Notes under the pieces: generated by a model
Databases searched by the model: none
Seen by the model: the letters and a program-made list of their open reading frames with translations, nothing else
Told to the model about the DNA's origin: nothing
Shown here: positions 39,785-48,413 of the stretch, piece after piece
Numbering within the stretch: position 1 is the stretch's first letter
How the letters are laid out: the number at the start of each line of letters is the position of its first letter
NCBI GenBank assembly: GCA_029263075.1
Contig: JAJCYE010000034.1
Span: 1 to 60,846 of the forward strand
Reading direction: 5' to 3'
DNA length: 60,846 nt
Origin: Actinomycetes bacterium
GTDB taxonomy: Bacteria > Actinomycetota > CADDZG01 > JAHWKV01
Translations under genes and position numbers: made by a program

Positions 39785-41797
39785 TCAGTGGGAAGCCAGG
39801 GCCACCGAACCCCACGACAGCAAGAACAGAGCGGTCATCATGACCAGTGGGATCGTCGTCCACAACACCTCGATTGCCAGCACCCGCAACCGCCCGGGTG
39901 CCTCCTCGGGCCTGCGGTAGCCGATCACGCCAACCAGGATAGCGGCCGAGAAGCCGACGAAGATGGTACCGGCGGCCACCAGCACAACCTGGTAGATCGA
40001 CTCGATGGCCGGGACGTTCAGCAGGACGTCCGCCGCCAGCGCAACGAACACCACCACCAGATACATGATCGAAAAGTGAAACAGGCTCATCGCCTGCTTG
40101 CCGTCCGGGTTCTTGCGGAGCCGCAGGGAGTAGAACACGAAGGCCAGGCCCATGACGCTGGCGGACGCCAGGTACAAGACTCCTAGCTGGGCCACCGGGT
40201 ACATCAGCAGGCTCACGGCAAACAGCACCACCGAGTAAAGGACAATCTGGCGCGTCGTCTCCTGAACGCCCCGGACCACCGGAAGCATCGGCACGCCTGC
40301 CGCCTTGTAGTCATCCGAATACCTCAGCGCCAGCGCCCAAAAGTGCGGGGGCGTCCAGTAGAAGATGATTGCGAACAGGACCCAGGCCGGACGGCCGACA
40401 TCGCCGGTGACCGCCGCCCACCCGATCAACGCGGGAGCGGCCCCCGCCGCCCCTCCGATGACGATGTTGGACGGCGTGTATCTCTTGAGCCCGATCGTGT
40501 AGACAAAGACGTAAAAAAGGATGGCGGCCAGCGACCACCAGGCCGCAGGCATGTTGATTGTCAACGCCATGAAGATGAAGCTGACAACTCCCAGGATGAC
40601 CCCGAACCTGAGGGCGTTGGCCGGGGTTACATCGTGACTCGGCAGGGGCCTGATCGACGTCCGCTGCATCTTTTCGTCGATGTCACGATCCAGATAGCAG
40701 TTGATGCAGTTGGCCGATCCGGCAGCCATGCTTCCACCGACGAGGGTCGCCAGCACCAGCCAAGGCGCCGGCCATCCCCGCTGGGCGACGATCATCGCAG
40801 GGACCGTGGTAATCAGCAGCAACTCGATAATCCGGGGTTTGGTGAGCATGAAGTAGGCCTTGATCCGGCCGCCTCCGCCACCCTTGGCCCCGGCACCCTC
40901 CGCTTCCCTCCCACCCGCAGGTGCGGCCACCCCGCCCTTGCGGTAGGCGAGGATACTCAACGACACCAGCGCCACCCACAACAACTCACCGGTAAGGACG
41001 TGGCCCACAATGGTCCACGGCGCCGAACCCGACAGGACATTGAACCCGCCCAGAAGCACCTGCACCAACCAGAGCGCAAACGCGCCGTGACCGAGCATGA
41101 GCAACGTGCGGTCCTTGGGGTCCCGCTTGGTGATGCGGTAAGCGAGCAGACCGATGGACACACCCAACAACGCGGCAACCAGCCGGTGGGTGTAGTGCAA
41201 CAGGGGTTTGGCGCCGTCGGGCGGTAGGAGCGAGCCGTTCATCAACGGCCAATCGGAAAACACTTCCGCTCCGGCCCGCTGCTGGACCACCGAAGCACCC
41301 ACCATCAGGACGATGAACGCCGCTGCCGTGGTCCACGCGGCCAGCCGGGACACCCGATCCCACCCTCCCCCGCGGGAGTGGAAGCTGTTCACCGTGGCGG
41401 TGGCCAGCAGCCCCACCAGAGTCAGCGACAAGAAGAAGTGAAGGACCACCGTGTCGGCGTGAAGCTCGTCGAGCACCACCTGGCGGCCGACGCCGGCCTG
41501 GATGATGACCGCCACCAGAGCGAGCAGCGAAGGCCAGAACACCGCGGGCCTCGTCCGCTGCTTCAGCCAGGCGACTACCGCCAGGGCCAGGACCAGGAAG
41601 CCCACGATCGACGCCACCAATCGGTGGCTGTACTCGATGATGGCCGTCTTCTCCAACGGGGGAATCCAATTACCGTGGCAACGGGGCCAGTCCGGGCAGC
41701 CGAGCCCCGATCCGGAGGCGCGCACCACAGCGCCGACCATTACCAGGATCATGGCCATCACGGTAGTGGCCGATGCGAGCTTCTGAAAACGGGTCAT
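39785..41797 (-). CDS. ctaA-ctaB: heme A synthase / heme O synthase fusion with a subunit-II-like tail
   Basis: A 670-residue polytopic protein. Residues about 1-290 are CtaA (COX15): EYSHR (His58), VVLHFF (His120), HYTHRL (His204) and GHVL (His266) are the heme ligands, with the Cys34/Cys40 pair in GCPDWPRC. A Gly-rich linker (about 287-312) leads to CtaB (about 313-590), with NCINCYLDRDIDEKM (363-377) and a later YSDDYKAAGVPML. Residues about 600-665 add two helices joined by a loop that ends in AIEVLWTTIP, like the IWTAIP of subunit II. It would farnesylate heme B and oxidise heme O to heme A for the oxidase. First gene after the cupredoxin in the operon. Confidence 0.93.
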   Translation of the reverse strand: MTRFQKLASATTVMAMILVMVGAVVRASGSGLGCPDWPRCHGNWIPPLEKTAIIEYSHRLVASIVGFLVLALAVVAWLKQRTRPAVFWPSLLALVAVIIQAGVGRQVVLDELHADTVVLHFFLSLTLVGLLATATVNSFHSRGGGWDRVSRLAAWTTAAAFIVLMVGASVVQQRAGAEVFSDWPLMNGSLLPPDGAKPLLHYTHRLVAALLGVSIGLLAYRITKRDPKDRTLLMLGHGAFALWLVQVLLGGFNVLSGSAPWTIVGHVLTGELLWVALVSLSILAYRKGGVAAPAGGREAEGAGAKGGGGGRIKAYFMLTKPRIIELLLITTVPAMIVAQRGWPAPWLVLATLVGGSMAAGSANCINCYLDRDIDEKMQRTSIRPLPSHDVTPANALRFGVILGVVSFIFMALTINMPAAWWSLAAILFYVFVYTIGLKRYTPSNIVIGGAAGAAPALIGWAAVTGDVGRPAWVLFAIIFYWTPPHFWALALRYSDDYKAAGVPMLPVVRGVQETTRQIVLYSVVLFAVSLLMYPVAQLGVLYLASASVMGLAFVFYSLRLRKNPDGKQAMSLFHFSIMYLVVVFVALAADVLLNVPAIESIYQVVLVAAGTIFVGFSAAILVGVIGYRRPEEAPGRLRVLAIEVLWTTIPLVMMTALFLLSWGSVALASH

Positions 41798-41828: not shown

Positions 41829-42467
41829 TCAATGTTCTCCAGCGGGAACTTCGCCGCCCGACGACTCACCCTCTGCCGCAATCACTTTCCCGTTCATCGT
41901 GGGGTGAACGTCGCACTGAAAGTAGTACTCGCCGGCGGCGATGGGATCTACCTTCTCCTCGACTTCTTTGGGGCCGGTGATGATGGCACCCCGGAACAAG
42001 GCGTTGGTGGAACCCGCTGCCTCCAGGATGGAAACGTTGTGGGGCTGGGCTTCTTTGTTGTCGAAGGCGATGATGAATTCTTTGTCCGCCGGGATAGAGA
42101 GTTCCGTCTGCTCGAAGGCCAGGTTATCGGCAACCAAGTCAACCTTCACAATCTCTTCGCCGTGGCCCTCCTCTTCGGGAAAGCTAACGACACCGGCAGC
42201 CGCAGCCCCACCCAAAACCAGCGGGACCACCGCGATGATCCCCAGGAACATCGCGAGGGGTTTCCCGGCGCTCGGTTTGGCTGCCATCACGCTGAATGCG
42301 ACAAGCAAGTTGATGGCCGTCATTATCGCTACCGAGGTGGCGATCTCTGCCGGTACGTTCAGCAGGATCTGGGACATGACCAACGCCAGGAACAGGACAA
42401 AGGCCAGTGCTCCCACCGGAATAAGGATGGGAAGGATCAGCCGGTCCCGCATCTTGTCGTCACTCAT
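41829..42467 (-). CDS. membrane-anchored cupredoxin
   Basis: A 212-residue protein with three N-terminal membrane helices (about 9-34, 43-62, 70-95) and a periplasmic blue-copper domain. The copper ligands are visible as His143 (AQPHNVSI), Cys185, His188 and Met191 (FQCDVHPTM), the type 1 set. In an oxidase operon it could donate electrons to the caa3 oxidase or handle copper. ATG 42465-42467 with GGTGGAG upstream overlaps the ctaG stop as ATGA. The N-terminal helices are unlike those of soluble plastocyanins. Confidence 0.88.
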   Translation of the reverse strand: MSDDKMRDRLILPILIPVGALAFVLFLALVMSQILLNVPAEIATSVAIMTAINLLVAFSVMAAKPSAGKPLAMFLGIIAVVPLVLGGAAAAGVVSFPEEEGHGEEIVKVDLVADNLAFEQTELSIPADKEFIIAFDNKEAQPHNVSILEAAGSTNALFRGAIITGPKEVEEKVDPIAAGEYYFQCDVHPTMNGKVIAAEGESSGGEVPAGEH

Positions 42468-43342
42468 CGCGTCTCCACCTTGTTCAACTCCCTTTCGAGG
42501 TCTTGCCACTTTGTGGCATCCGGGGTACCCGACTCCTGCTGGGCGGCCCATTTGAAGAAAAGTACGGCAATTATCGTCCAAAGTAGCAGACCGCCGCCCA
42601 CCTTCATTATCAGGCCCGACACACCCTGATCGGCAACCGCGCTAAATCCCGAGATCAACCTGGGCGCTTCGGCGTACGACCGGTACAAAGGGTACTCGCC
42701 AAACGTAAGGAACGACGCCGGGACCGTGGGTACGATCGTCTGCCCGAACAGGTAGAGCATCTGGCCCGGCATCGATAGCCTCGGCAACTCGGGCATGGGA
42801 CTGAGGACCGGCCACCACATCAAGAGCGAGGTCGCTACCAGCAGGATGTGGGCGCCGAAGTGGAACGCCTCGTTGGAGGTGGTCTCGTTGACAAATCCCG
42901 GCCAGTGGGTGAACACCAAAAATACGTTGAAAATAATCAGCGCCGGAAGGGGCCTGGTAAGGCGGCGCATGATCGCCATCGCCCACCGGGGCCGAAGGAT
43001 CCGCCGGGCCAACCAGTCCGGGGTACCCATCAGGACCAGGGCCGGCGCGATCAGCGAAAACATAAGGTGCTGCAGCATGTGCATGCTGAACAGGTAGTTT
43101 TCGCTGATTTCGTGCATCGGCCAGTCGGCGCCGATCCAAAACACCAGGATTCCCGACACGAAATACCCGACCTGCGACTTGGTCGCCGCCGGTTCGCCGG
43201 GCGACACGTACCGAGGGCCCCAGAACTTTAAGGCTGCCCAGTACCAGGCCAGCACTGCGCCCATGATGAGCCAGACATCCAGGTGCGGCGCCCATAACCA
43301 GGGTCCGCCCACCTGTCCATGGGCCAGCAGGTCCGTCGCCAC
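42464..43342 (-). CDS. ctaG: CtaG-type cytochrome c oxidase assembly protein
   Basis: A 292-residue polytopic protein of the Caa3_CtaG family with about seven transmembrane helices. Conserved His-bearing segments are visible: DWPMHEISENYLFSMHMLQHLMFSLIAPALVLMGTP and THWPGF, later AFHFGAHILL. These proteins help assemble the caa3 oxidase and probably deliver copper. It lies 12 bases downstream of the subunit IV gene and is coupled to the cupredoxin gene by the ATGA overlap. Confidence 0.93.
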   Translation of the reverse strand: MATDLLAHGQVGGPWLWAPHLDVWLIMGAVLAWYWAALKFWGPRYVSPGEPAATKSQVGYFVSGILVFWIGADWPMHEISENYLFSMHMLQHLMFSLIAPALVLMGTPDWLARRILRPRWAMAIMRRLTRPLPALIIFNVFLVFTHWPGFVNETTSNEAFHFGAHILLVATSLLMWWPVLSPMPELPRLSMPGQMLYLFGQTIVPTVPASFLTFGEYPLYRSYAEAPRLISGFSAVADQGVSGLIMKVGGGLLLWTIIAVLFFKWAAQQESGTPDATKWQDLERELNKVETR

Positions 43343-43354
43343 GAAAGGCCGCGT

Positions 43355-43687
43355 TTAGCTAGCTGCCCCGGCGAGGCGCTCGGCGAAGGTAAAGGTCCAC
43401 AGGACGACGCCGTAAATGGCCATAGCCAGGATGATCCCAAGGATAAAAAAGCGCCGGAAGATCTTCGAATCGAACTTCAGGTGCATGAAGTACCCGGCCA
43501 CCGCTACAAACTTGACGATCATCATGGCGCTAAGAATCGGCACGATCAAGTTCGTCAGCGAGTCGATGTAGACGACCACCACCTCCAACGCCGTGACGAT
43601 GCCCAGGAAAATGGCGATCTTTACGTATTGGAACTCGGATGGGTGATCGTGAGCGTGCTCTTCCAAAGAAGTCTCCGTTGTACTCAT
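43355..43687 (-). CDS. cytochrome c oxidase subunit IV
   Basis: A 110-residue small subunit of the COX4_pro/CyoD family with three transmembrane helices (about 25-45, 47-68, 78-100). MMIVKFVAVAGYFMHLKFDSKIFRRFF is the recognisable segment. It stabilises the binuclear centre in quinol and cytochrome c oxidases. The start overlaps the stop of the subunit III gene (ATGA, 43684-43687). Length is normal. Confidence 0.9.
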   Translation of the reverse strand: MSTTETSLEEHAHDHPSEFQYVKIAIFLGIVTALEVVVVYIDSLTNLIVPILSAMMIVKFVAVAGYFMHLKFDSKIFRRFFILGIILAMAIYGVVLWTFTFAERLAGAAS

Positions 43688-44298
43688 GGGAACAGGTAAA
43701 CGACGGTGAAGATGACAATCCAGATGATGTCCACGAAGTGCCAGTACAGACCCACCATCTCGACCTTCTTAGCTCCCTCCGAGAACGGATCGAGCTTGCC
43801 CAACTTCGACAGCGTGTACATGGTCAGCAGCATCAGGATCCCGATGGCGACGTGGGTTCCGTGGAACCCGGTCAGGACGAAAAAGCTGGATCCGAAGGGG
43901 CTGGTCTGAAGCGTCAGGCCCTTGTGGACGAATTCGGTGAACTCGAAAAACTGCCCGCCGATGAAGCTGGCGCCCAGCAACGAAGTTGCCAGCAGCCAGA
44001 TCCTCAGCTTGCGATGGTCGCCCCGCTGAATGGCCGCGAGGGCCAGCACCATGGTCAGCGAACTCATCAACAGGACGAACGAGGACACAGAGGTGTAGGG
44101 AATGTCGTAGACATCGTGCCTGGTGGGCCCGGTGCCGGTTCGGTTCCGGTAAAGAAGGTGTGAGGCGATCAGTGCACCGAAGAACAGGCACTCCGATCCC
44201 AGGAAGGCCCACATCGCCAGCTTGACGTTGTCCAAACCGGTGTAAGTAGCATGCGGGTCGTGCTCCGCGTGGGTCTCCTCGACTGTGGCGTCGTGCAT
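43684..44298 (-). CDS. ctaE: cytochrome c oxidase subunit III
   Basis: A 204-residue protein with five transmembrane helices, the shortened form common in caa3-type enzymes. Family segments are AMWAFLGSECLFFGALIASHLLYR, LGASFIGGQFFEF and GFHGTHVAIGILMLL, with the conserved Glu and His. It lies one base after ctaD and before the subunit IV gene in the same operon. Confidence 0.95.
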   Translation of the reverse strand: MHDATVEETHAEHDPHATYTGLDNVKLAMWAFLGSECLFFGALIASHLLYRNRTGTGPTRHDVYDIPYTSVSSFVLLMSSLTMVLALAAIQRGDHRKLRIWLLATSLLGASFIGGQFFEFTEFVHKGLTLQTSPFGSSFFVLTGFHGTHVAIGILMLLTMYTLSKLGKLDPFSEGAKKVEMVGLYWHFVDIIWIVIFTVVYLFP

Positions 44299-46185
44299 TT
44301 AGTGCTCCTCCGCCGTAGCCGGCTCTAGTACCCAACCGTAGAACCCCGCCAGGGTGATGACCGTTCCGACGATACCCAACGGCCACGAGTGCAGAATCAC
44401 CGCGAAACCGGCAACCGGCATCCCGATGGCAGCAACGAGCGGGAAGTAGGACGGCGACGGCATGTGGATGCCGTGGCCGGCGTCGTGTTCGGCGTCCTCC
44501 GAGTGCTCCTCCGAGCCACCCACGGGAACCGGGACCGGCCGGCCCTTCTTGTCCTCTTTGTACTTGCGGTGCCAGAAGTCATCGCGCTCGGTGACGGTGG
44601 GTATCACTGCAAAGTTGTATTCGGGGGGAGGCGACGGGATGGTCCACTCCAGCGTACGAGCGTCCCACGGGTCGTTCCCGGCGATCTCGCCCTTCCGCTT
44701 GCTCTTCACCCAGTTGTGCATGAAGACCAGGGTGGAGGCTGCAATCAGGAAGGCGCCCACCGTGGAGAGCATGTTCCACATTTCCCAGCCGAGGCCGGCC
44801 TGGTAGGTGTAGTAGCGACGGGGCATGCCCTTGAGGCCGAGGATGTGGAAAGGACCGAAGGTCATGTTGAAGCCGATGAGCATCATCCAAAAGTGGATCT
44901 TGCCCAAGCGCTCGTCCATCATTTTGCCGTAGATCTTCGGGAACCAGAAGTACAGACCACCGAACAGACCGATGATGGCGCCACCGAACAGCACGTAGTG
45001 GAAGTGGGCCACGATGTAGTAGGTGTCCTGCTGCTGGGCGTCGTGGGGGACAATCGAGTGCGTAACTCCCGACAGGCCACCGATGATGAACATGGCGATG
45101 AAGCCGATGGAAAACAACATGGGTGTCTTGAACTTCAGCGAACCGCCGGCCATGGTGGCCATCCAGTTGAAGATCTTCACCCCGGTCGGCACTGCGATGA
45201 ACATGGTGGAGACGGCGAACGCCGAGTTGGCGGCCGGACCCAGGCCCACGGTGAACATGTGGTGCGCCCACACGCCCCAACCCATAAAGCCGATGGCCGC
45301 TCCGGAGAACACCACGAAGCTGTAGCCGAACAGCGGCTTGCGGGAGAAGACCGGGAGGATCTCCGAGACAATTCCCATCGCCGGGAGGATCAGGATGTAC
45401 ACCTCGGGGTGCCCGAACAACCAGAACAGGTGTTGCCACAGGATCGGGTCACCGCCACCCGCCGGCGCAAAGAACAGGGCGCCGAAGGTGCGGTCGAAGG
45501 TCATGAAGAAAAGGGCGACCGCGATCACCGGCATGGCGAACAGGAGCAAGAAGTTGACGACCAGCGACATCCAGATGAACACCGGCATCTTCATCAGCTT
45601 CATGCCTGGCGCCCTCATGTTGAGGATGGTGGTGATGAAGTTGGCCGAAGCCACGATCGATGCGACACCCAGGATCTGCAGACCCAGCGCGTAAAAGTCG
45701 ATCCGGTGATCGCCGGGCAGGAAACCCGCCGAGCTCGACAGGGGGGCGTAACCGAACCAACCGCCGTCGGGTGCTCCACCGAAGAACCAACTCGAATAAA
45801 GGAACAGGCCGCCGAACAAAAAGACCCAATACGATAACGAGTTCAGTCTGGGAAAGGCCACATCTCGGGCCCCGATCATTAACGGGATGAAGTAGTTGAA
45901 GAAGGCCGCACCCATTGGCATGACCACCAGGAAAATCATGGTTACGCCGTGGGTGGTGAAAAGCTGGTTGTAGAGGTCGGCGCTGATCAGCTTGCCCTCA
46001 GGGGTAGCCAACTGAGCGCGGATCAGGAGGGCTTCCAAACCGCCGAGGATGAAGAACACAAAGGCGGTGTAGCCGTACATGATGCCGATTCGTTTGTGGT
46101 CGACCGTGGTTACCCAGCTCCAGATGCCGTGGCTGGCCTTGGGCCGGCGAAGGAACCATGGGGTCGGCGTAGTTACCATAGCCAT
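44299..46185 (-). CDS. ctaD: cytochrome c oxidase subunit I
   Basis: A 628-residue heme-copper oxidase subunit with 12 helices. Ligands are visible: FTTHGVTMIF (His of heme a), WLFGHPEVYILILP (Cu_B His and cross-linked Tyr), and the pair in YYIVAHFHYVLFGG (heme a3 and heme a). The sequence HPEVYILILPAMGIVSEI is the A-type signature. The C-terminal extension (about 560-628) adds two more helices, as in caa3 oxidases where part of subunit III is fused. The partners are ctaC upstream and ctaE downstream. Confidence 0.97.
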   Translation of the reverse strand: MAMVTTPTPWFLRRPKASHGIWSWVTTVDHKRIGIMYGYTAFVFFILGGLEALLIRAQLATPEGKLISADLYNQLFTTHGVTMIFLVVMPMGAAFFNYFIPLMIGARDVAFPRLNSLSYWVFLFGGLFLYSSWFFGGAPDGGWFGYAPLSSSAGFLPGDHRIDFYALGLQILGVASIVASANFITTILNMRAPGMKLMKMPVFIWMSLVVNFLLLFAMPVIAVALFFMTFDRTFGALFFAPAGGGDPILWQHLFWLFGHPEVYILILPAMGIVSEILPVFSRKPLFGYSFVVFSGAAIGFMGWGVWAHHMFTVGLGPAANSAFAVSTMFIAVPTGVKIFNWMATMAGGSLKFKTPMLFSIGFIAMFIIGGLSGVTHSIVPHDAQQQDTYYIVAHFHYVLFGGAIIGLFGGLYFWFPKIYGKMMDERLGKIHFWMMLIGFNMTFGPFHILGLKGMPRRYYTYQAGLGWEMWNMLSTVGAFLIAASTLVFMHNWVKSKRKGEIAGNDPWDARTLEWTIPSPPPEYNFAVIPTVTERDDFWHRKYKEDKKGRPVPVPVGGSEEHSEDAEHDAGHGIHMPSPSYFPLVAAIGMPVAGFAVILHSWPLGIVGTVITLAGFYGWVLEPATAEEH

Positions 46186-46202: not shown

Positions 46203-47243
46203 TTATTTCAGGCTCAACAGGTAGGCGGTCAGATCGTCGATCTGCTCATCCGTCAGGTTCAGCTGCGGCATCTTTGAACCGGGCTTGAGCTCCGGAGGAT
46301 CGTTGAGCCACGCCTTCAAATTTTCTTCGTTCATCTCGAACATCGAGCCTGCAAACCGGGTGCGACTGCCCACGTGGGTGAGGTTCGGGCCGACAATGCC
46401 CGCCGCGTCGCTGCCTTGGACTGCGTGACAGGCGACACACATCTGGCCATCGGCGAAGACGCCGGTCATAAACAGGTCTTCACCTTCCTGTACCGACGCG
46501 TCGCTCGCTGCATCTTCCAGTTGATCGGCAACCCACTGGTCGAAGTCGGCCGGCTCGTGGGCAATGGCCTTGGCACGCATGTTGGCATGCGACAAACCGC
46601 AGTACTCCGCACACTGGCCCAGGTACTCGCCCGGCTTGGTTGCCTCAATGGTCATGTGGTTGATCCGGCCCGGAACCACGTCCTGCTTGCCGGCCAGCTT
46701 GGGAATCCAGTAGCTGTGGATGACATCAACCGACTTGAGAGTCAGGTAAACCGGACGGTCGGTGGGGATGTGCAGTTCGTTGGCGGTGACGACACCGTTG
46801 TCGTACTTGTACTCCCACCACCACTGGTGTCCGATGACTTCAACCTGGAGTGCATCCGCAGGCTCCCGGGCCTGGTCGAAGATCACCGGGACGGTCATGA
46901 ACGCGATGCCGGTGAGGATGACGGCCGGGATGGCGGTCCAGATCAACTCAAACTTGGTGTGTCCTTCGATCTGGCGGGGCGAACCATGGGCTTTGCCCTC
47001 ACGGTATTTGAAGAGGATGAAGATGAGGCCACCCTCCACCGCAATGAAGACGAAGGCGGCGATGCCGAAGGTCACGTCCCACAGGCGGTCGGCCTGAATG
47101 GCCCGGGGGCCCTCGGGGTACAGGTAGTTCATCGGGGCATCCGCCGAGATACACGCGCTTAGCAGCAGCGTGGAGGCGAGGGCCACCAAACGAACGACGT
47201 AATTAAGTTTGCTTCGAGCGCGTTTGCGCAGAGGTCGATCCAT
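46203..47243 (-). CDS. ctaC: cytochrome c oxidase subunit II with fused cytochrome c
   Basis: A 346-residue lipoprotein: basic start, hydrophobic core and lipobox LLSAC (Cys31). Two transmembrane helices (about 55-80 and 95-115, with FELIWTAIP) precede the CuA cupredoxin domain with VIGHQWWWEYKYDNG, HSYWIPKL and the CuA loop GQCAEYCGLSHANM (two Cys, His, Met). The C-terminal domain (about 245-346) is cytochrome c with CVACH and an axial Met in GSKMPQLNL. This defines a caa3-type oxidase. It is the first gene of the minus-strand operon. Confidence 0.96.
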   Translation of the reverse strand: MDRPLRKRARSKLNYVVRLVALASTLLLSACISADAPMNYLYPEGPRAIQADRLWDVTFGIAAFVFIAVEGGLIFILFKYREGKAHGSPRQIEGHTKFELIWTAIPAVILTGIAFMTVPVIFDQAREPADALQVEVIGHQWWWEYKYDNGVVTANELHIPTDRPVYLTLKSVDVIHSYWIPKLAGKQDVVPGRINHMTIEATKPGEYLGQCAEYCGLSHANMRAKAIAHEPADFDQWVADQLEDAASDASVQEGEDLFMTGVFADGQMCVACHAVQGSDAAGIVGPNLTHVGSRTRFAGSMFEMNEENLKAWLNDPPELKPGSKMPQLNLTDEQIDDLTAYLLSLK

Positions 47244-47294
47244 CGGAATTGGATGCTAGCAGATACAGTGGATCGATCCCCTTGGAAACGTCCT

Positions 47295-48413
47295 ATGAAC
47301 GCTAAAAAGTCTGTAGTTGGGCAGAAGTCCAGCCTGGAGACGGTCCGATCTCAGATCGATCTCGCCCTCCAAACGCGCCTGGACGAGGTCCGAGCCGGGT
47401 TTGTGGCGAGCTCAAGCCAACGAATCGTCGAGGAAGTTACGAGGGCAACCATTCGCCAGGGAGGCCGGATCCGGCCCCTACTCTGCTGCTGCGGTTACGC
47501 CGCGTGCGGGGGCGCCGGAGGCCCCTCGGACAAGCGAATAATCCAGGCCGCGGCCAGCCTCGAACTGCTGCACACCTTCGCGATCCTGCACGACGACGTC
47601 ATGGACGGATCGTCCCTTCGCCGGGGGGAACCGACCGTTCACCGGAGGCTGGCCGACGAACATCGGTCGTCCGGGGTGCCCGGAGACTCAGAGCGCCACG
47701 GCATCTCGGTGGCGATACTGGCCGGCGACCTGGCGCTCGTTATCTCCGACTACCTGATGGCCCAGTCCGGATTCGGTTCCGACCTGCTGGCCGACGCCGC
47801 AGTCCCGATTACCCGGATGCGCCTGGACGCCATCGCAGGCCAGTACCTGGACCTCAACCACAGCGGCCGGGGAGTGGCCGACCCCAACCTGACCGCCCGA
47901 ATCGCCCGGCTGAAGACCGGAAGCTACAGCGTCGAGGGCCCACTGCTGGTGGGAGCCACGCTCGCAGGAGGCGGCGAGGCGGCCATCGACGCCCTCCAGA
48001 GATTCGCCCGGCCGCTGGGCGAAGCGTTCCAGTTGACCGACGATCTGTTGGGGATGTTCGGGGACCCGCAGGTGACGGGCAAGAGCGCAGAGGCCGATCT
48101 GCGACAGGGCAAGCCGACCTCGCTCATGGCCCAGAGTCTTGCCCTGGTAGACACCACGACCAGACAACACATCCTCGAGGTTTGGGGGAACCCCGACGCG
48201 TCGGATGAGGACCTTCAGATCCTGCGCAAGGTGGTCTACGAGTCCGGGGCCGTCAAGTCGATGATCCGGTCGATCAAACTCTTGGTCTCCGAGGCCAACG
48301 CAGCGATCGAAGACCCACCGAGCGTCGGGCTGCTTCCCGGCCCCTGCAAGCAGATGTTGAAGCTGGCCGAGTCGATAGTCGCCCGGGCTCGCGAGCTCGG
48401 ACGGCCGGGCTAA
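47295..48413 (+). CDS. polyprenyl diphosphate synthase
   Basis: A 372-residue trans-prenyltransferase making isoprenoid chains for quinones or cell-wall carriers. The first Asp-rich motif is DDVMDG preceded by LHTFAILH (about 100-110); the second is FQLTDDLLGMFGD (about 250). The GGRIRPLL segment near residue 60 is typical. The product length cannot be read reliably. ATG 47295 is preferred; an in-frame ATG at 47253 would add 14 poorly conserved residues. It is divergent from ctaC. Confidence 0.92.
   Translation: MNAKKSVVGQKSSLETVRSQIDLALQTRLDEVRAGFVASSSQRIVEEVTRATIRQGGRIRPLLCCCGYAACGGAGGPSDKRIIQAAASLELLHTFAILHDDVMDGSSLRRGEPTVHRRLADEHRSSGVPGDSERHGISVAILAGDLALVISDYLMAQSGFGSDLLADAAVPITRMRLDAIAGQYLDLNHSGRGVADPNLTARIARLKTGSYSVEGPLLVGATLAGGGEAAIDALQRFARPLGEAFQLTDDLLGMFGDPQVTGKSAEADLRQGKPTSLMAQSLALVDTTTRQHILEVWGNPDASDEDLQILRKVVYESGAVKSMIRSIKLLVSEANAAIEDPPSVGLLPGPCKQMLKLAESIVARARELGRPG

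Follow-up and report, generated by a model that had tools for sequence, protein, structure and literature searches.

CtaB makes heme O and CtaA makes heme A; SURF1 is the usual heme-insertion factor, and SURF1/Shy1 presumably inserts heme a into subunit I. Fusions of CtaA and CtaB are known from Deinococcus-Thermus, Chloroflexota, Acetothermia, Ktedonobacter, Bdellovibrio, and others (PMC8239418), and are also described in a second study (PMC9145763), in agreement with an earlier note on this DNA, which held that such fusions exist in some prokaryotes. Here, we analyzed a stretch of 60,846 nucleotides from an uncultured actinobacterium (the whole of which we call the window) that encodes a fusion of this kind, CtaAB. 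Like the known fusions, CtaAB has both synthases in one polypeptide, keeps their ligand residues, and is encoded among oxidase genes. Unlike them, it carries a C-terminal COX2_TM hairpin, a feature not described in the accessible part of PMC8239418. We found no report of a COX2_TM tail on CtaA-CtaB fusions in the accessible parts of the open-access literature, which is weak evidence of absence. The CtaA-CtaB fusion is known, and what appears to be new is the subunit-II hairpin on it, in one small order of uncultured actinobacteria.

Two other known systems resemble the tail. The transmembrane domain of CtaC/CoxB (PF02790), in the clade of CtaCs that bear a cupredoxin domain, also has two helices in the same predicted orientation and shares with the tail F613, the E..WT..P motif, and L-F-x-x-S; the tail differs from CtaC in that it lacks a signal peptide, lipobox, and CuA domain as well as the Q.HGN loop and the VE pair of TM1, and in that it is joined to a heme synthase. 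SURF1/Shy1, on the other hand, has the same proposed role as the tail, which would be to hand heme A to subunit I while subunit II is still absent, but it belongs to a different family and is a separate gene in the genome of the window (G000).

The reading frame that the earlier note placed at 39785-41797 is present and lies on the minus strand, which that note left unstated, with 670 codons for 670 residues. Its parts, and the features of its tail, are as follows.

40946-41797, minus strand: heme A synthase (CtaA) domain, residues 1-284, 8 predicted helices (Pfam; AF2 model against 6a2j)
40874-40945, minus strand: Gly/Ala-rich linker, residues 285-308 (sequence, low pLDDT, relaxed dN/dS)
40019-40873, minus strand: heme O synthase (CtaB, UbiA fold) domain, residues 309-593, 9 predicted helices (NCBIfam, Pfam, fold match)
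39788-40018, minus strand: COX2_TM-derived transmembrane hairpin tail, residues 594-670 (COX2_TM, hhalign, PDB, dN/dS)
39923-40003, minus strand: tail helix 1, residues 599-625, equivalent to CtaC TM1 (AF2 helix, CtaC alignment)
39794-39892, minus strand: tail helix 2, residues 636-668, equivalent to CtaC TM2 and the more constrained half (dN/dS, AF2)
39848-39871, minus strand: E643-V-L-W646-T647-T-I-P650, the E..WT..P motif that opens TM2, invariant in all tails and in CtaCs (PDB alignment)

Both the fusion and its Gly-rich linker had been claimed before and are confirmed: within the one frame, Pfam COX15-CtaA matches residues 7-278 (5e-37), Pfam UbiA matches residues 327-575 (1e-69), and the NCBIfam heme o synthase model matches residues 311-595 (2e-121). 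Extra C-terminal residues with two predicted helices are also there, although they number 77 and not the roughly 65 that had been claimed. The CtaA heme ligands His58, His120, His204, and His266, the Cys34/Cys40 pair of ECL1, and residues N363, N366, D370, and D374 of the Asn/Asp-rich CtaB motifs are all present, and nearly all such ligand and motif residues show no variation across 40 aligned CtaAB fusions. Judged by its sequence, CtaAB is a putative bifunctional heme A synthase, which would convert heme B to heme A. An AlphaFold (AF2) model of the monomer has a mean pLDDT of 86 and matches the heme A synthase 6a2j and UbiA-family structures, with pLDDT below 50 at linker residues 292-305.

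The hairpin is complete in four genomes of one genus (G000-G003) and in one genome of a second genus of the same family (G004); in a third genus (G005), the contig ends near the CtaAB linker. All five available tails match COX2_TM. For the isolated window tail, COX2_TM was the sole Pfam match below E = 1 (0.011, or 0.0042 with a slightly longer cut), at 16.3-17.7 bits against a curated gathering cut-off of 22.8 bits. This shortfall is what speaks for a chance resemblance or for ordinary extra helices of CtaB. However, the G004 tail scores 25.5 bits (E 1.5e-5), above the cut-off, and 24.0 bits in a whole-genome scan; hhalign gave 98.8% (E 7e-17) for the tails against CtaC transmembrane regions but 0.3% against CtaB's own last helices; and shuffled tails reached Smith-Waterman scores of at most 61, compared to 120-140 for the real tails against the best CtaCs. 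Chance resemblance is thus refuted for practical purposes, and the 0.3% value rules out a duplication of CtaB helices. A profile of the five tails searched against 177,635 PDB sequences found heme-copper oxidase subunit II only (best E 0.0016), while a fold search with the isolated hairpin, which is uninformative for two helices, returned no significant matches. COX2 (PF00116), the CuA cupredoxin domain, had no match in CtaAB, whose tail stops shortly past TM2, and a column comparison showed that the Q.HGN loop, with its His96 equivalent, and the TM1 VE pair, both invariant in CtaCs, are lost from the tails. Together, the matches to COX2_TM, CtaC, and subunit II in the PDB show that the CtaAB tail shares ancestry with the subunit II transmembrane hairpin, in line with the subunit-II-like hairpin of the earlier note. 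It is not a set of ordinary CtaB helices devoid of any COX2_TM score, the outcome that would have spoken against that note.

The same tail had been suggested as something to look for in other CtaB proteins, and among the genomes and records covered we found it in one order only. Among 130 CtaB ORF records inspected, those with at least 40 extra residues (14 records, with some genes represented more than once) all came from the order, while one Gemmatimonadales CtaB has 30 extra residues unrelated to the tail. Among the matches listed for 397 genomes of the phylum, a list cut at its weak end, none from outside the order extends through the tail. A separate scan of genome contigs covered the best 80 matches, and tails in other phyla are conceivable. 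CtaA and CtaB are separate, tail-less genes in the rest of the class. In a sister family (G006 and G007), CtaAB (L131 10894-12903; L132 1427-3406) has lost helix 2 but retains the first tail helix and a basic end, and no remnants of helix 2 were seen past the stop in three frames; the C-terminus of these proteins would lie in the cytoplasm. A phylogeny of 101 CtaABs unites the proteins with a full tail and those with helix 1 alone (99% SH-aLRT), and one branch (93%) has all the full-tail proteins on the same side.

ctaAB is the last gene of an operon on the minus strand that reads, 5' to 3', ctaC, ctaD, ctaE, subunit IV, ctaG, cupredoxin, and ctaAB.

46203-47243, minus strand: complete caa3-type CtaC with COX2_TM, CuA domain, and cytochrome c (Pfam)
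44299-46185, minus strand: oxidase subunit I (CtaD), the proposed docking partner (Pfam)
43684-44298, minus strand: oxidase subunit III (CtaE) (Pfam)
43355-43687, minus strand: oxidase subunit IV (COX4_pro) (Pfam)
42464-43342, minus strand: caa3-type CtaG assembly factor (Pfam Caa3_CtaG)
41832-42467, minus strand: membrane-anchored cupredoxin gene between ctaG and ctaAB (Pfam Cupredoxin_1), in a gene order conserved across the taxonomic order

A likeness of the tail to this operon's own CtaC, claimed previously, did not hold up. The two are 18-20% identical and score 62-71 by Smith-Waterman, at the level of the best of 87 decoy membrane windows (68), which rules out the operon's own CtaC as the source of the tail. 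They have only the universal E..WT..P motif in common, and the earlier comparison with KFELIWTAIP is weak because that motif is common to all CtaCs. The best matches are instead CtaCs of the cupredoxin-bearing clade (from Chloroflexota and from the Actinomycetota family f15, G035 and G049), with identities of 33-38% and scores of 127-140. The domain of the window cupredoxin (41832-42467) is itself 33-37% identical to the extra C-terminal domain of this CtaC clade. Since both the tail and the cupredoxin resemble one CtaC clade, domains that elsewhere belong to one protein appear here in two genes.

In many relatives, ctaAB is followed downstream by a ctaC on the same strand, in some cases directly adjacent, so fusion of neighboring genes is the simplest origin for the tail. 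We infer that ctaAB became joined to the 5' portion of a ctaC, whose CuA domain was lost; no intermediate of such a fusion was seen. The hairpin could also be a functionless relic of a deletion that joined ctaAB to part of a downstream ctaC, an origin made plausible by the many relatives with ctaC beside ctaAB, and one with which the loss of helix 2 in the sister family and the low tail identity between the two tail-bearing genera (only 34%) would agree. However, we found that the tail has a within-genus dN/dS of 0.11-0.19 and its helix 2 one of 0.07-0.14 (Nei-Gojobori), compared to 0.08-0.12 for CtaA, 0.06-0.11 for CtaB, and, where it is defined, 0.31-0.38 for the linker, ratios that are approximate because synonymous divergence is high (0.5-1.3). 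Since the tail values are far below 1 and below the linker, the invariant residues are non-random, and the hairpin is kept in five independent genome assemblies from two genera, a neutral relic is quite improbable. The tail is clearly constrained, under purifying selection.

We found that the invariant positions of the tails coincide with the conserved columns of CtaC (Mann-Whitney p 0.0015; Fisher p 0.006) and also that E643, W646, T647, P650, L657, F658, and S661 share one face of helix 2 (p 0.001), although these statistics amount to roughly a two-lineage comparison because four of the five tails come from one genus. In the PDB alignment, E643 aligns with Glu101 of Rhodobacter sphaeroides subunit II, with an H and an E spaced five residues apart as in H96/E101; H96 and E101 lie at the mouth of the K-channel (PMC10341450). 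The channel that a Glu101-type residue serves belongs to subunit I, so the side of the tail that is conserved is probably the one that corresponds to the contact with subunit I. The predicted topology also follows CtaC: CtaB ends outside, tail helix 1 runs out-in, a basic loop lies inside, and helix 2 runs in-out.

In Paracoccus, subunit I is inferred to be hemylated before subunit II joins, the farnesyl of heme a3 is embedded between subunits I and II, contacts between CtaA and the oxidase were too transient to catch, and the route of heme delivery into subunit I is called unresolved (PMC5249081). Given this hemylation order and farnesyl position, together with the topology and conserved face of the tail, we tentatively favor a reading to which we would give somewhat less than an even chance, namely that CtaAB is a bifunctional synthase with a ctaC-derived hairpin that holds the enzyme on CtaD during heme A insertion. 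The hairpin would occupy the CtaD surface where subunit II binds later and would keep the heme-making enzyme beside apo-CtaD while heme A goes in, until arrival of the real CtaC displaces it. A more specific version, in which the tail mimics subunit II at CtaD and the fused synthase passes heme A on directly, with the tail possibly closing the pocket of the heme a3 farnesyl as its second wall for the time being, is a possibility that we hold to be somewhat unlikely.

The homology, the purifying selection, the CtaC-like face with its K-channel Glu, the topology, and the shared operon, which unites ctaAB and ctaD throughout the order, are all compatible with docking on CtaD. On the other hand, the tail is missing the CtaC-invariant Q.HGN loop and TM1 VE pair, it is most closely related to CtaCs from a different oxidase clade than that of the CtaD in its own operon, and a separate SURF1 is encoded in G000. 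The five tails represent about two independent lineages, and the sister family has no helix 2, which is therefore dispensable there. In CtaAB, evolution has joined the two enzymes of heme A synthesis to part of the oxidase, which suggests a specific place of contact, namely the site on subunit I where subunit II binds, and the CtaAB tail offers a construct in which this contact is testable by cutting or mutating 77 residues.

It is also conceivable, if somewhat unlikely, that contact with CtaD was lost after capture from ctaC and that the hairpin now packs on CtaB or CtaA or mediates oligomerization of CtaAB. Heme A synthases do oligomerize (trimer 8aw5; CtaA oligomer, PMC5249081), the sister family retains helix 1 alone, and the helix 1 block is modeled fairly confidently after CtaB in the AF2 monomer (pLDDT ~82-84). 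However, the helix 2 block has low confidence in the same model (57-63, where the alignment is only two rows deep), the conserved face is CtaC-like and not new, and all other examined CtaABs work without a tail. An improbable alternative is that the hairpin acts as a checkpoint or competitor, blocking the subunit II site or binding a candidate partner (CtaC, CtaG, SURF1, or the cupredoxin) until cofactors are loaded. The presence of ctaG and the cupredoxin gene in the operon and of SURF1 in the genome would suit such a role, which differs from docking merely in binding order and purpose.

The genome of the window encodes a second heme-copper oxidase (L124 on contig C133, 6601-9068, minus strand), whose CtaD2 shares 56-62% identity with cupredoxin-clade CtaDs of Chloroflexota but 48% with the window CtaD, and whose CtaC2 has no cytochrome c domain. 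From these identities, the hairpin might have been shaped for this cupredoxin-clade type of oxidase. Another type takes the place of this second oxidase in G003, G006, and G007, and it was not found in G004. However, G004 keeps the hairpin with one detected ctaC and a single full-scoring COX1, so the partner there, if a CtaD, should be the CtaD of the same operon. A tie to the Chloroflexota-type oxidase is thus unlikely as a general rule. That the tail serves a second oxidase lacking subunit II is also unsupported, since the second CtaD of G000 has its own CtaC. SURF1 was detected in G000-G003 and G005 but not in the G004, G006, and G007 genomes, each of which has an A-type oxidase and CtaAB; this pattern gives no support to the tail as a replacement for missing SURF1.

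Divergently beside ctaC, at 47253-48413 on the plus strand of the window, lies a polyprenyl synthase gene, whose product might provide heme O synthesis with its farnesyl donor. Almost every genome of the order in which the region is covered has such a gene divergently beside ctaC, and G060 and G029 have one near ctaAB.
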